Position numbers and translations under genes: made by a program | Shown: positions 8,044 to 62,775 of the stretch, piece after piece | Position numbering within the stretch: position 1 is the stretch's first letter | How the letters are laid out: each line of letters opens with the position of its first letter | The notes under the pieces: generated by a model | Seen by the model: the letters and a program-made list of their open reading frames with translations, nothing else | What the model was told of the DNA's origin: nothing | Databases searched by the model: none | NCBI RefSeq assembly: GCF_001748365.1 | Contig: NZ_BDHH01000006.1 | Coordinates: 124,001-188,000 of the forward strand | Source: Fusibacter sp. 3D3 | GTDB taxonomy: Bacteria; Bacillota; Clostridia; Peptostreptococcales; Acidaminobacteraceae | Direction: 5' to 3' | DNA: 64,000 bases

Positions 8044-8316
8044 AAAAAAAGCCTTCATCCCTATAAAAGGGACGAAAGCTACTTCCGCGGTACCACCCAG
8101 ATTGATCTAAAAAGATCCTGCTCATCGATACGGACTTAAAGTCGATATCTACTGACGATAACGTGTCAGGAAACGTCTAATCCTACTGTTAGTTCGGTTA
8201 GAAACTCAGAGATGTTCTTCTTTCAAAAATCCGTACTGATCTTTCACCATCATCAGCTCGCTTCCACTACCATTTTGAAATACTCTTCTCGTCCTCGTTT
8301 TTAATTTGATTATTTT
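8044..8316 (-). promoter_or_regulatory. T-box riboswitch leader of the aspS::gatC-gatA-gatB operon
   Basis: On the minus strand the T-box sequence TGGGTGGTACCGCGGAAG lies at 8082-8099. It is followed by an intrinsic terminator (GCTTTCGTCCC/GGGATGAAGGC plus a T-run) at 8044-8079. Stem I has the AGTA element near its base. The 3' side of the specifier loop reads GAAGAACA before TCTCTGAG, placing AAC (Asn) at 8214-8216, with GAA (Glu) overlapping it at 8215-8217. An Asn, or Asn plus Glu, specifier fits an operon that makes Asn-tRNA by transamidation. Codon assignment is by eye from the expected stem I layout. Confidence 0.92.
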
Positions 8317-52297: not shown

Positions 52298-53614
52298 TCA
52301 GCCCTTTTCATATTTTTCGATTAATTCTATAATGCGCTCAATCCCCTGTGTGATCATCTTTTCATCCGCATTTGCAACAGAGATCCGAATCGCATGACTT
52401 GGGGTATTTTGGAACCAGTAAAAATAATCCCCACACGTCACGTCGATATGCGCTTCTTTTAGACATTCAACGAACCTAATACTGTCCACATTTTGTGAAA
52501 ATTCAAGCCATACAAATATGCCTGCATCGGGGATTATACATTGGATACCTTTATCCATAAACAGCTTTTGATATTGTTTCAACAATTTCATTTTTGCACG
52601 TACCGATCGTCTAACTTTCTGAATATGTTTGTCGTATATTTCTGCATCAAAATACTTTTGAAGGCCCATTTGAGAAAGCGTACATGTATTCAAATCGATC
52701 GATTTCTTATAAAATGTAAGCATTTCCATGTGTGTCGTTGGCGCTATCAATGCGCCGATGCGTATCCCTGGCAGAAATGTCTTAGAAAAACTTGTCACAT
52801 AAAATACGCGATTTTCAACATCCAAATAATGAAGTGTCTCCACTTTCAAATCTAAATTGAGATCCCCTAAATAATCATCCTCAATCACATAAAAATCATA
52901 CTGATATGCCAGCATCAAAAGCTTGTTTTTATCCTTGCTAGATAAACTTGTGCCCAATGGATTTTGAAAATTAGAGACGGTGTATAACCATCCCACTTTA
53001 TTTTGCTTCAGTTTTGCTTCTAAAGTCTTAAAATCAACCCCATTGTCTCCCCGATTAAAAGTTAAAACAGGGGCATCTGTCTTTTCAATAATTCTCTGAA
53101 AATCACCATATGTGGGCTGTTCAATCATTAAAATTTGCTTACTTTCTAAAACTAACTGTAATACTAAATAAAGTGCCTGCTGTGCACCTGTTGTCACCAG
53201 AATACGGTCTGCGCTTGTGTAGAGATGCCTCTTTTCAAAATGTTTCACTAAGCATCGTCTTAAGGACTCAAGACCCTCTGGAGGCGCATAGTTATAATGT
53301 TCACTCTGAAGCGCTTGTATCATACAGTGTTCAAAGTGTTTATGAGGTCTAAGCTTAGCTTCTAATCCCGCTGAAACAAAGTCAACGCGCTTTTGAAATA
53401 CTACTTTTGTTACAAGATTTTTCATTAAATAGGTACCGCTTTGTGGAATTGTGTACGCTAGATGTCTTTCTTCAAGGACCTCATACGCTTTTATAACAGT
53501 GCCTCTGCTACAGCTCATTTCATCCGCAAGGGTCCTAATAGGTGGCAATCGATCACCATCCACATACGTCGGATCACTTAACACTTTTTTTATAATCACT
53601 TCATATTTTAACAA
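52298..53614 (-). CDS. MocR-family regulator (GntR HTH fused to aminotransferase fold)
   Basis: 438 residues. The N-terminal GntR winged helix (about 1-70) has LPPIRTLADEMSCSRGTVIK, then AYEVLEERHLAYTIPQSGTY. The rest is a fold-type I aminotransferase domain with the PLP Lys in TSFSKTFLPGIRIGALI and the YTVSNFQNPLGTSLS block. Such proteins sense PLP or an amine adduct and usually control adjacent genes. Here the divergent aminotransferase and EamA genes are the natural targets; pdxST is an alternative. It appears to start with TTG at 53614 (GGAGG five bases upstream); no better-placed ATG exists. Confidence 0.9.
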   Translation of the reverse strand: MLKYEVIIKKVLSDPTYVDGDRLPPIRTLADEMSCSRGTVIKAYEVLEERHLAYTIPQSGTYLMKNLVTKVVFQKRVDFVSAGLEAKLRPHKHFEHCMIQALQSEHYNYAPPEGLESLRRCLVKHFEKRHLYTSADRILVTTGAQQALYLVLQLVLESKQILMIEQPTYGDFQRIIEKTDAPVLTFNRGDNGVDFKTLEAKLKQNKVGWLYTVSNFQNPLGTSLSSKDKNKLLMLAYQYDFYVIEDDYLGDLNLDLKVETLHYLDVENRVFYVTSFSKTFLPGIRIGALIAPTTHMEMLTFYKKSIDLNTCTLSQMGLQKYFDAEIYDKHIQKVRRSVRAKMKLLKQYQKLFMDKGIQCIIPDAGIFVWLEFSQNVDSIRFVECLKEAHIDVTCGDYFYWFQNTPSHAIRISVANADEKMITQGIERIIELIEKYEKG

Positions 53615-53653: not shown

Positions 53654-53681
53654 GTACAATTCTGATTTAACAGTATTGTAC
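53654..53681. promoter_or_regulatory. Inverted repeat between mocR-type gene and aminotransferase operon
   Basis: GTACAAT and ATTGTAC, centre to centre 21 bases (two helical turns), a plausible site for the MocR regulator. The right arm overlaps the -35 of the plus-strand promoter. Confidence 0.5.
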
Positions 53682-53704
53682 CACACCGTCTTTTGTTTTA
53701 ATAT
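53676..53704 (+). promoter_or_regulatory. Probable promoter of the aminotransferase-EamA operon
   Basis: TTGTAC (53676-53681), exactly 17 bases, TAATAT (53699-53704). It would start transcription near 53711, at the left edge of the first tandem repeat, making the repeats a 300-base 5' leader. Confidence 0.6.
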
Positions 53705-53706
53705 AA

Positions 53707-53840
53707 CCCTTGAGGAGATGTCCTCCACTTCGTGGGGGACATCTCCCTAATTCAGGGGGAGTTCATCTCCCACTGAATGCAATCCAATAGGATTGTAAGG
53801 GTTACGAAGGTAGCAAAGCGGACTGAGTATACGCTTTTAT
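53707..53840 (+). repeat. Structured tandem repeat unit 1 in the aminotransferase leader
   Basis: A 134-base unit, nearly identical to the next. Hairpins by eye: GAGATGTCC/GGACATCTC, TTCAG-GGAG/CTCC-CTGAA, AATCC/GGATT, all closed by TAACCCTT/AAGGGTTA; then an AAAGCG/CGCTTT stem. It starts CCCTTGAGGAG and ends in the tail GACTGAGTATACGC. Confidence 0.85.
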
Positions 53841-53976
53841 CCCTTGAGGAGATGTCCTCCACTTCGTGGGGGACATCTCCCTAATTCAGGGGGAGTTCAT
53901 GCTCCCACTGAATGCTAATCCAATAGGATTGCAAGGGTTACGAAGGTAGCAACGCGGACTGAGTATACGCTTTGAT
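53841..53976 (+). repeat. Structured tandem repeat unit 2 in the aminotransferase leader
   Basis: 136 bases, directly abutting unit 1 and differing by two single-base insertions and three substitutions. The inserted G extends the GGGAG/CTCCC hairpin, consistent with maintained RNA structure. The unit ends 32 bases before the aminotransferase ATG. Confidence 0.85.
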
Positions 53977-54008
53977 CCTTAACCCAATCCCAACTAAATG
54001 GAGGTCAT

Positions 54009-55193
54009 ATGACAGTCTTTTATCCCCACCCAACCCTAGATATTACGCTTGTTTCAGCCAAAGAGAATACCTTTACAGATGATCAAAATAGAACCTATTT
54101 GGATTTTGAATCCGGTATATGGTGTGCGAATATTGGTCACAATCCAGAACCACTTGTTCAAATTTACACAAGCCAATCTCAAAAGTTAATACATCACCAT
54201 AGCTATTTTAAAAACCATGCTGTACAAAGACTATCCGCACAATTACTTGCCATTTCTAGTTTTGATGAGGGTGCTGCCCTATTTTTAAGTTCTGGAAGTG
54301 AAGCCGTTTTATTCGCAATCACAGTTGCCAAGACCTTACTCCAAAATGCAAAATGTGTTTCACTTGAAAACTCCTATTTGGGTGCTTATCCCACAATGGT
54401 TTCTGATGAATCTGATCACATTCAGATGCCCTTTACCAAATGTGATCCAAAATGCGATGAAAATAATGACATTGTTTGCGAATGTTGCCCTCATGTGCCA
54501 GATGCCTTAAAATATCTCAAAGAACCTTTTATTTTTATTTTAGAACTTGGTTCTCAAGAAGGTAAATTGATCTTTCCAACACAAAAGTTAATCCATTATA
54601 TCCATCAAAAAAATTGCATCCACAAAGGACTACTTGTATGTAATGAAATTACCAGTGGCTTTGGCAGGACATCGGAATGGTTTGCTTTTAATCATTACAA
54701 CCTAAAGCCTCATTTAATCGCACTCGGAAAAGGACTTGGCAATGGCTTCCCAATCAGCGCAATACTCATGGATCAACAAATTTACAAAGATCCAAAGTTG
54801 ATGCATTTAAAATACGCCCAGTCACATCAGAATGATCCTCTTGGTGCAGAAATTGCGTACTCGGCAACTCAAATGATCATTCAAAATAATTTGATTGCTA
54901 AAAGCAAAGATATCAGCTATTATTTTATTGATCGCTTAACTCAATTAATACATCAATACAGTTCGCTTGTTGAACTTAGAGGTAAAGGTTTAATGCTGGG
55001 ATTAGTCTGTGATCATTCTGCAACTGCAATAGCACTTCAGCAACATTTACTAGAGCATCAGATCTTTGTTGGATGCGTCTCCGTGCATGCAATTGTCCGT
55101 TTCTTTCCACCGATGACTATGAGCAAACAAGAAATTGATATACTAATTGACAAAATTCACCTTTTTTTAGCAAATAACAAATCATCTCTCTAA
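54009..55193 (+). CDS. Class III aminotransferase
   Basis: A 394-residue PLP-dependent enzyme. It shows YLDFESGIWCANIGHNPEPL, LFLSSGSEAVLFAITVAKT, the PLP aspartate replaced in VCNEITSGFGRTSEWFAF (class III proteins usually have DEV), and the Schiff-base Lys in IALGKGLGNGFPISAIL. A cysteine-rich insert (CDPKCDENNDIVCECC, about 140-157) is unusual and could bind metal. The substrate is unknown. Start has GGAGG about six bases upstream. It is divergent from the MocR regulator and is followed after 11 bases by an EamA transporter, suggesting uptake or export of its substrate or product. Confidence 0.87.
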   Translation: MTVFYPHPTLDITLVSAKENTFTDDQNRTYLDFESGIWCANIGHNPEPLVQIYTSQSQKLIHHHSYFKNHAVQRLSAQLLAISSFDEGAALFLSSGSEAVLFAITVAKTLLQNAKCVSLENSYLGAYPTMVSDESDHIQMPFTKCDPKCDENNDIVCECCPHVPDALKYLKEPFIFILELGSQEGKLIFPTQKLIHYIHQKNCIHKGLLVCNEITSGFGRTSEWFAFNHYNLKPHLIALGKGLGNGFPISAILMDQQIYKDPKLMHLKYAQSHQNDPLGAEIAYSATQMIIQNNLIAKSKDISYYFIDRLTQLIHQYSSLVELRGKGLMLGLVCDHSATAIALQQHLLEHQIFVGCVSVHAIVRFFPPMTMSKQEIDILIDKIHLFLANNKSSL

Positions 55194-55204: not shown

Positions 55205-56047
55205 ATGAATCGATTACAAGCTGTTACACTATTAGTCCTTACAAGTATCCTCTGGAGTTTTGGAGGCGTTTTCATCAAATTGATTCCTTGGTCCCCCCTA
55301 GTTATTGCGGGACTCAGAAGCATTATCTCAGCAGGTGTTTTTTTCATTTTTCTAAAAGGAAAGGTACGAAAACCCAACCAAAAGGTGATTCTAGGTGCTA
55401 TTGCCTATACCGCTACGCTCATTCTATATGTCACTGCGACTAAAACCACCACTGCAGCTAATGCCATACTGCTTCAGTACACAGCACCCATATGGCTTCT
55501 GCTAATCTCTCATTTTTTTCTAAAAGAATCCATCCGCAAATATGATGTACTTTCAATTATTGCTGTGTTTATTGGCATTTCAATCTTTTTTACAGCCAAT
55601 ATTGGTATTGGCCAAATGTTTGGAAACCTTCTCGCCATTTTAAGCGGTATATGCATGGCCTTGATGATTCTCTGCCTTAAACATTCTGCTGATCAAGATG
55701 AGATGCAAATCATATTTTGGGGCAATATGCTCACCTTTTTTACCTGTCTGCCTTTTATGCAGCACATAGAGGTTACCAAGCTTTCCATTGGGGCAATTTT
55801 ATTTCTTGGCATTTTCCAACTGGGCATTTCCTACATTTTATATGCAAAGGCAATAAAACACGTCTCTGCAATTGATGCCGTGTTAATTCCAATCATCGAA
55901 CCCCTTTTTAATCCAGTTTGGGTGATGTTATTTGTTCATGAAATACCTTCATCGCAAGCGATTATGGGTGGTATTATAGTAGTCTTTGCCATAGTAAGCC
56001 GCAATATATACCTTACGAGAGCCGCAAAAAAACAATTGGCACTTTAG
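55205..56047 (+). CDS. EamA/DMT-family transporter
   Basis: 280 residues with ten predicted helices in two EamA repeats (TSILWSFGGVFIKLIPWSPL at the start; LFLGIFQLGISYILYAKAIK in the second half). Such proteins move amino acids, amines or other metabolites. It lies 11 bases after the aminotransferase gene and probably belongs to the same operon and MocR regulon. The gene is intact, but its last 124 bases also occur beyond the neighbouring IS as part of the 195-bp duplication. Confidence 0.9.
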   Translation: MNRLQAVTLLVLTSILWSFGGVFIKLIPWSPLVIAGLRSIISAGVFFIFLKGKVRKPNQKVILGAIAYTATLILYVTATKTTTAANAILLQYTAPIWLLLISHFFLKESIRKYDVLSIIAVFIGISIFFTANIGIGQMFGNLLAILSGICMALMILCLKHSADQDEMQIIFWGNMLTFFTCLPFMQHIEVTKLSIGAILFLGIFQLGISYILYAKAIKHVSAIDAVLIPIIEPLFNPVWVMLFVHEIPSSQAIMGGIIVVFAIVSRNIYLTRAAKKQLAL

Positions 56048-56217: not shown

Positions 56218-57930
56218 CTATCTCGTTTTGGTTTCTGAAATATTTTTTTTAATCTGTTGAAGTGTTCTTATCTTCGTTGAAAAATCAACATTTGTCACGT
56301 CTCCGATATCCTTTAAAACTTCATCGTAATAATCAAACAAGTAATAGTTTTGATCTACATTTGTACATGTACATTTGCTTAAACTGTCGATGATGCGTGT
56401 GATGGTGTGTTTGCCATCCATTTTAAACTCTAAAATCCTAGCAAGCACCAAAGCTATGAAGCATGTTAAGAAATGTGCTTTGATGTGGTCTTGTGTTGAA
56501 ACATATACAGGTCTCGTTTCAAGATCACTTTTGGTAACCTTAAAGGATTCTTCTATCTTCCAAAGGCCTCTGTAGATTTCAATCACTTCACTGGCACTCT
56601 TCTTGTATTCGCTTGTGATGAGCACGTAGTAGCCATCAAGAGCCTCTTGCGCTTTTATTTTCTCCTCATCAAGGCTTAAAGCAGTTATATCAGCAATTTC
56701 GCCAGTATCTTTTACAAAACTAAGGTTCTTCACATATCCAGCAGCCCCATAGGATGTAGAGCGATTATAGTTTGAAGGTGTTTTTATAAGCTTCTTAGCT
56801 TTTTCAATGGCTTTAGCGCGTTCCATCCTAGCTTTCTTCGCATATTTTTCGCTATAGAAAACCACTTGCTTGGCATCGATGGTTTTCTTTTGCTTTTTTC
56901 CAGAAGTCATGGTAACCCAAATTTCAGTCGGGTAAATGCGTTCCTTCCACTTATAGTCATCCCCTTTAAAAACATAGCCCTCTTCATCTAAAATATAGTC
57001 TTTTAAAGCTTTGTTGGCGCCTCTAGCGGAGTAACTAAAAACAAAGCCATCGTTTGCTGAAAGTGTGTACTGAATGTTGTCACCTGTGGACATCCCTTTG
57101 TCAGCAACCACGATGACTTTTCCTAAATCAAACTCTTTTTTCATTCTAGAAAAAGTGGGTCTGTAGGTGAGACAGTCATTGGTATTGCCTGAATAAAGAT
57201 CGTAGGTAATGGGGATGCCGTTGGTGTCCATGAAAAGGCCCATTTGAACAATGGGGTTTGGACGATGCTCTTTGCTGACGCCTTTGCACCTAAAAGCATC
57301 TTCACAATCCGATTCAAAATAATAATTGGTGACATCGTAGTAAACAAGGCTGGTATCTCGTCCGTAGTTTTCTTTGACTTTTTCATTCATCCATAGCTGC
57401 AACTCATTGCCTTTTTCATTGAAAAAACTCAGTGCGCGGTAGACGTCATCAAGAGAGTAATGAGCGTTTTCAAAAAAATCATTTCGCTGATCATAGGCTT
57501 TCTTTTTAGAGCCTGGGTTAAGGAGTCTTGAAAAAACAAGGAGCTTCATGATGTTATTGGTGCTCGCCTCAATCTTCGTTGAACGTTGGCGATTGATGAG
57601 AAACTTGTCAATTTCAAGTGTGTGGTAGATGGCGCTGAAAGCGGCATAGCCAAAGTTTTTACGGTTGTTGGTGCCGACTTCTAATTTGTCATTAGATTTG
57701 TACTTAACAAGAATATCTGAATTTTCAAAAGCTTTTTTTTGATTCATTTCGCAGATGATTTTTTCGTAATAAGCAATGGGATCTTTAAACTTTTTTTCTA
57801 GTTCATCTAAATAGCCTAGACTTTCAATGGTTCTTGATTTAGTTTTTTTAGTTGTTTTATCTCGATAGCTTTCAACAATAGAAAGATAGACACGTCCTGT
57901 GTGTTTTTGATTAATTTTACGTAGAAACAT
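56218..57930 (-). CDS. IS1634-family (IS4 group) DDE transposase
   Basis: A 570-residue full-length transposase. An N-terminal region (FLRKINQKHTGRVYLSIVES) is followed by the DDE core: D in YYDVTNYYFE, D in VVADKGMSTGDN, and E in GLWKIEESFKVTKSDL (YREK-like region). A beta-strand insertion separates the second D and E. The ATG at 57930 has AGGAG seven bases upstream. The reading frame is intact, so the element may be active. Confidence 0.95.
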   Translation of the reverse strand: MFLRKINQKHTGRVYLSIVESYRDKTTKKTKSRTIESLGYLDELEKKFKDPIAYYEKIICEMNQKKAFENSDILVKYKSNDKLEVGTNNRKNFGYAAFSAIYHTLEIDKFLINRQRSTKIEASTNNIMKLLVFSRLLNPGSKKKAYDQRNDFFENAHYSLDDVYRALSFFNEKGNELQLWMNEKVKENYGRDTSLVYYDVTNYYFESDCEDAFRCKGVSKEHRPNPIVQMGLFMDTNGIPITYDLYSGNTNDCLTYRPTFSRMKKEFDLGKVIVVADKGMSTGDNIQYTLSANDGFVFSYSARGANKALKDYILDEEGYVFKGDDYKWKERIYPTEIWVTMTSGKKQKKTIDAKQVVFYSEKYAKKARMERAKAIEKAKKLIKTPSNYNRSTSYGAAGYVKNLSFVKDTGEIADITALSLDEEKIKAQEALDGYYVLITSEYKKSASEVIEIYRGLWKIEESFKVTKSDLETRPVYVSTQDHIKAHFLTCFIALVLARILEFKMDGKHTITRIIDSLSKCTCTNVDQNYYLFDYYDEVLKDIGDVTNVDFSTKIRTLQQIKKNISETKTR

Positions 57931-58017
57931 ATTATTACTCCTAAACAAAGATATTACAATTATACCATAATAAATCACTTTAATCCATAATAAAATGAAA
58001 GAAAAATAAAATAAAAA

Positions 58018-62667: not shown

Positions 62668-62769
62668 TGTTTTTTGTGCATTTTTTGAGAAGGGACAACC
62701 CCAGGAGGGCAGGTTACTGACAGCATAGCTGCATCCGGACTACCTACCGGATCGTGTTTTTATCTCTGC
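62668..62769 (-). promoter_or_regulatory. Probable yjdF riboswitch
   Basis: The 100-base leader of yjdF is compactly structured: ATCCGG/CCGGAT, GCAGC/GCTG, and GGTAGGT/ACCTGCC (one wobble), followed by GGGGTTGTCCC near the 3' end. The gene it precedes and the size fit the known yjdF RNA. I assign it by context and structure, not by a covariance-model search. Confidence 0.65.
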
Positions 62770-62775
62770 AATCTT

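Follow-up and report, generated by a model that had tools for sequence, protein, structure and literature searches.

Tandem structured units in an aminotransferase leader of Fusibacter sp. 3D3 are a dimeric insertion of a dispersed mobile repeat

Introduction

In the genome of Fusibacter sp. 3D3, two near-identical, strongly folded units lie head to tail between a promoter and a class III aminotransferase gene. Is this pair a tandem riboswitch-like leader, as a preliminary description of the locus had proposed, or a mobile or REP-like palindromic repeat, which that description named as its main alternative? The locus was analyzed within a window of 64,000 nucleotides, meaning the whole stretch of contig sequence under study, to which all coordinates without a genome label refer.

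Results

The two units were confirmed as direct repeats on the forward strand, unit 1 (CCCTTGAGG...CGCTTTTAT, 134 nt) at 53707 to 53840 and unit 2 (CCCTTGAGG...CGCTTTGAT, 136 nt) at 53841 to 53976, with bounds set by empty sites and covariance model scores of 119.6 and 119.2 bits, respectively. The five differences counted between them earlier comprise two 1-nt insertions and three substitutions, and at their joint ...CTTTTAT is followed directly by CCCTTGAGG. Pattern searches and alignment located a near-invariant 29-nt core module, GTTACGAAGGTAGCAAAGCGGACTGAGTA, in each unit (53801 to 53829 and 53937 to 53965, forward strand). The promoter-like boxes TTGTAC (53676 to 53681) and TAATAT (53699 to 53704), separated by a 17-nt spacer, and the ribosome-binding site TGGAGG (53999 to 54004) were found on the forward strand as described, and the sequence supports placement of the units in a 5' leader, immediately after a good promoter. 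A host TATAA pentamer (53702 to 53706, forward strand), which also occurs in an empty IS605 site described below, is directly 5' of unit 1 and overlaps the -10 box.

Downstream on the forward strand are the class III aminotransferase gene (54009 to 55193; PF00202, E 2e-51) and a gene for an EamA-family transporter (55205 to 56047; PF00892, E 1e-33). Divergent to this operon is a gene for a GntR/MocR-like, PdxR-like regulator (52298 to 53614, reverse strand; NF052282, 251.8 bits, under the cut-off of 320). An inverted repeat, GTACAAT-N14-ATTGTAC (53654 to 53681), overlaps the -35 box and stands between the regulator and the aminotransferase gene; it is conserved in Fusibacter ferrireducens and is a possible operator of the MocR/PdxR-type regulator. 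Elsewhere in the window, an IS1634-family transposase gene (56218 to 57978, reverse strand) follows the EamA transporter, and a T-box leader (8065 to 8304, reverse strand) and an azaaromatic (yjdF) riboswitch (62675 to 62773, reverse strand) exceed their Rfam gathering scores.

The fold proposed earlier by eye was supported by RNA folding of unit 1 with its flank, which gave -66.6 kcal/mol compared with -36.7 +/- 3.7 for shuffled sequences (z -8.1) and a predicted outer stem around three hairpins, followed by a tail hairpin. The family consensus folded as single-stranded DNA adopted the same arrangement (z -8.4), while a minimal, shortened copy gave z -2.9. Across the alignment, base pairs were kept in 96.0% of cells, compared with 31 to 48% when the pairing was slid, and 14 pairs had changed on both sides. 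Both units carry CCTCCA, as had been noted, but in the minimum-energy fold of the leader this motif is not paired with TGGAGG, and folding thus gave no support for sequestration of the ribosome-binding site. In both units the first hairpin, which is very stable, encloses CCTCCA; across the family, the consensus there is CCCCCA.

Copy numbers were determined by pattern searches of the assembly (5,111,250 bases, or 5.11 Mb, in 57 contigs; PMC5525254) with up to 3 mismatches. The 40-nt tail gave 112 matches (57 forward and 55 reverse), the 22-nt head 92 and the 24-nt core 186, with no match for any of the reversed controls. A search of the same assembly listed 44 matches and gave 165 first-look candidates. 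Copies adjoin unrelated genes throughout the genome and thus occupy many unrelated intergenic positions, the very observation that the preliminary description had named as telling against a leader function.

Outside this strain, 39 core motifs were present in F. ferrireducens (G002) and none in a third Fusibacter genome (G001). The 29-nt core was absent, at up to 3 mismatches, from genomes outside the genus among 394 genomes of the order, and a covariance model run on 41 genomes of the family found nothing beyond Fusibacter sp. 3D3 (G000) and F. ferrireducens. An exact-pattern scan of genome contigs, which may leave out the window's own genome, returned F. ferrireducens only; the corresponding scan of viral contigs matched one contig. 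Two copies of the element were observed on the viral-catalogued contig IMGVR_UViG_2751185701_000001 (L099). No published description of the family was found in the literature searched, which is a weak negative. The preliminary description had recognized no riboswitch class in the units. No Rfam family matched above its gathering score, and a sub-threshold match to BTnc231 was confined to one old copy. The repeat is a new, Fusibacter-restricted family that is common to two species and recently active in one strain.

The orthologous locus in F. ferrireducens carries an aminotransferase gene with 74% identity, preceded by the same promoter and inverted repeat without any unit. The window reads TTTTAATATAA, then the two units, then CCTTA..., while F. 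ferrireducens reads TTTTAATATGG followed directly by CCTTA..., and the covariance model found no unit in this orthologous leader. Since the promoter is conserved in a leader that lacks the units, it is host sequence older than the insertion. The position of the units directly after a good promoter and their strong fold would suit a riboswitch, or another cis-regulatory leader native to the aminotransferase-transporter operon. However, given the dispersal of copies beside unrelated genes, the empty ortholog and the lack of an Rfam match, this explanation was ruled out for practical purposes and retains almost no probability. The window pair is instead one dimeric insertion of a genus-restricted, transposase-less mobile repeat that landed between promoter and gene, and not a switch built for the aminotransferase gene.

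In 77 intact copies, the five bases preceding CCC were TATAA, with a minority of TTTAA (T at -5 in 74, A at -4 in 70, T at -3 in 74, A at -2 in 77 and A at -1 in 71). The full element, 5'-CCCTTGAGG...GTTACGAAGGTAGCGAAGCGGACTGAGTATACGCTTTGAT-3', is about 143 nt long, and its ends, CCCTTG... and ...CTTTGAT, do not form inverted repeats. Insertions into IS copies resolved the junctions to the base. An empty IS605-type site reads ...TTAGTTGTATAA joined to CTTTTGTTATT..., and its filled counterpart reads ...TTAGTTGTATAA, then CCCTTG...CTTTGAT, then CTTTTGTTATT.... At this filled site (L176), TTGTATAA and CTTTTG are split exactly after TATAA by CCCTTG...CTTTGAT, with 0 target bases duplicated and 0 lost. 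In a second IS copy, the right junction is CTTTGAT followed by CATTGTTAGAG, where the intact IS has ACAATATAA followed by CATTGTTAGAG. Several other sites filled in Fusibacter sp. 3D3 are empty in F. ferrireducens, and one of these keeps TATAA. Thus, the element enters directly 3' of TATAA without duplication or loss of the target. A classical MITE was ruled out by the lack of both terminal inverted repeats and target-site duplication. Insertion aimed at promoters, with the target serving as a -10 box, was also rejected, as 69 sites showed no enrichment of a -35 box at a spacing of 15 to 19 nt; the overlap with the -10 box in the window is therefore a single case.

Short copies of the element keep only TATAA followed by CCCTTG...CAAGGGTTACGAAGGTAGCGAAGCGGACTGAGTATACGCTTTGAT (e.g., L126, L121, L103 and L136), comprising the outer stem and tail, which shows that the element can do without its central hairpins. 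Among the matches listed for this assembly, five places hold tandem copies; at their joints, CTTT(G/T)AT of the first unit abuts (C/T)CCTTG of the next, with no TATAA in between. Such a joint is expected if an excised right end is joined to a left end, which accounts for the head-to-tail arrangement. In the window, the two units are much more similar to each other than to the family consensus, and hence one arose from the other; they did not arrive independently. The dimer could have formed from the joint of an excised circle or by re-insertion at the element's own end. It lies between the older promoter and the aminotransferase gene, and any effect on that gene would be incidental, through a long, very structured 5' leader.

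Discussion

IS200/IS605 elements have no terminal inverted repeats, and they enter 3' of a target of four or five nucleotides that they do not duplicate (PMC7290912); PATEs are transposase-less derivatives of elements of this type (PMC3119063). As the insertion rule matches these traits, we infer single-strand transposition by a Y1-type enzyme acting in trans. In this model, the element would move as single-stranded DNA, with an IS200/IS605-type (HUH Y1) transposase supplied in trans and the hairpins of the element serving as end-recognition structures. With a probability of roughly three in four, we read the pair as neighboring copies of a non-autonomous mobile DNA element, about 143 nt long, that is present in well over 100 copies and moved by such transposition.

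Several observations bear on this model. About 26 matches to Y1 transposases were found in the Fusibacter sp. 3D3 genome. In 43 aligned copies, TTACG is invariant and the preceding G nearly so, and the TTA of this motif pairs with the target TAA in predicted folds that include the target. This predicted pairing suggests that the conserved GTTA may recognize TAA by base pairing. Relative to both flanking genes, 65 copies are co-directional and 15 opposed by crude open reading frame calls, and 78 copies follow the GC skew of their contig while 26 do not, a bias expected for single-strand transposition. Selection at the transcript level could also produce such a bias; discordant cases (4 versus 3) are too few to separate it from replication-strand bias.

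The search for an autonomous element sharing both ends with the repeat was negative, and the resident Y1 elements differ in their targets and ends (TTTAA followed by CC...GTCAC). These elements were rejected as the parent after the ends of three IS types were inspected without a match. Like the repeat, the resident IS605-type IS (L164 and about ten others) has a T(T/A)TAA target followed by CC. Of the hairpins of the element, only hairpin 1 resembles one in this IS, CCCCCACTTCT...AAGTGG, with agreement at 19 of 22 nt (p 0.003, uncorrected for the 12 tests made); the hairpin lies in the right end of the IS and the left end of the element. The IS differs in its TTTAA target, its GTCAC right end and the 133-aa TnpA that it encodes. 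Beyond its final tail hairpin the element continues for only about 2 nt, compared with about 10 nt in the right end of the resident IS605 element, which counts against the mobile-element reading.

The repeat can be read as a transposase-less element resembling PATEs, BOX and bcr1. In common with the PATEs of Haloquadratum (PMC3119063), it lacks a transposase and terminal inverted repeats, has near-terminal palindromes that can fold in single-stranded DNA, and inserts beside a short targeting oligonucleotide without duplicating it. PATEs are tied to IS605-type transposons, whereas no IS605 parent with matching ends was detected in Fusibacter sp. 3D3, and the Fusibacter element is further distinguished by up to three internal hairpins, expandable tail arrays and a Bacillota host. 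The BOX elements of Streptococcus pneumoniae (PMC3049150) are alike in architecture, being modular, intergenic and strongly folded, and the copy number of an internal module ranges from none to many; insertion of the Fusibacter element 3' of TATAA is base-exact. Like bcr1 of the Bacillus cereus group (PMC6542083), the repeat is short, group-restricted and present in tens to more than 100 copies. The mobility of bcr1 is linked to the short motif TTTAT; the Fusibacter repeat instead targets TATAA, and its right end, CTTTGAT, carries no second copy of that pentamer. A layout resembling that of bcr1 was observed in a genome of another genus of the same family (G015, L063-L089), which contains a dispersed hairpin repeat of about 130 nt that has TTTAT at each end and also occurs in tandem (15 matches listed, 68 first-look candidates).

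A REP/RAYT-type repeat, in which a GTAG-tagged tail hairpin is mobilized by a domesticated, REP-associated Y1 transposase, would account for the GTAG before the tail hairpin CGAAGCG...CGCTTTG. REP/RAYT systems (PMC2817692) likewise combine GTAG before a hairpin with Y1-type enzymes in the genome, and long Y1-domain genes are present in the repeat-rich genomes G000, G002 and G015 and absent from the repeat-less G001. However, the 143-nt unit, with its fixed ends, is longer and more complex than REP, no RAYT gene is linked to it, and neither long Y1 gene of G000 is flanked by the repeat, so that these RAYT-like genes were rejected as partners; palindromes of another family border one of them. 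Mobilization of the REP/RAYT type is therefore unlikely. The long Y1 gene at C9:27455-27778 of G000 (L189, L285) has GTTTC...GTACGTGGTAC...GAAAC palindromes on both sides, and these recur near L143, L169, L182 and L184 as a separate REP-like family. An orthologous Y1-like gene with repeat-free flanks, beside an ABC transporter ATPase gene in both species (L280, G000 C4:154071; L281, G002 C40:96591), appears to be domesticated.

Retro-type mobility, by target-primed reverse transcription as in group II introns, is very improbable. The absence of target duplication, the structured RNA and the existence of some copies with a 3' end and no 5' part are all in its favor, but other copies retain the head and lack the tail (e.g., L245 and L249).

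The older copies of this mobile repeat present a further question. Their hairpins differ in sequence yet pair well, and they carry core modules in tandem arrays with a period of 45 to 130 nt and locus-specific spacers. Old copies that are orthologous between the two species include those upstream of nrdR and purE. Summed over five loci common to both species, both partners had changed in 16 base pairs and a single partner in 8, although this count took in only pairs formed in both folds and so favors paired changes. These compensatory changes hint at constraint in place; a dead insertion should not retain its fold in this way, which also counts against the mobile-element reading. The family may be, or may partly have become, a functional structured RNA: old copies in leaders and between genes would act in cis, a protein or RNA would bind the repeated 29-nt module, and mobility would have been the means of spread. 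The kept fold, the well-paired hairpins of unrelated sequence, the near-invariant module arrays and the mostly co-directional copies would fit such a role. In addition to the bias of the count, palindromes could stay perfect through repair on a hairpin template or through conversion among copies, and the empty orthologous loci indicate that many copies are dispensable; we consider an RNA role unlikely, though not remote. A combined reading, that a mobile element delivers structured RNA and that old copies were kept as cis-acting RNAs, with a four-way-junction fold held by compensatory change and the 29-nt module multiplied per locus to tune binding of a partner, would be less probable again.

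A suspected riboswitch is thus a mobile repeat with a base-exact insertion rule, and its annotation as an orphan riboswitch should be avoided. A large family with recent activity in one strain and two host species provides natural before-and-after pairs, in which to test how hairpin-rich insertions into leaders affect expression and why old copies hold their fold. At L240, L241, L242, L243, L250 and L257 in Fusibacter sp. 3D3 and at L091-L098 in F. ferrireducens, the 29-nt core forms tandem arrays whose spacers are homogeneous and specific to each locus, and these could pass for questionable CRISPRs.
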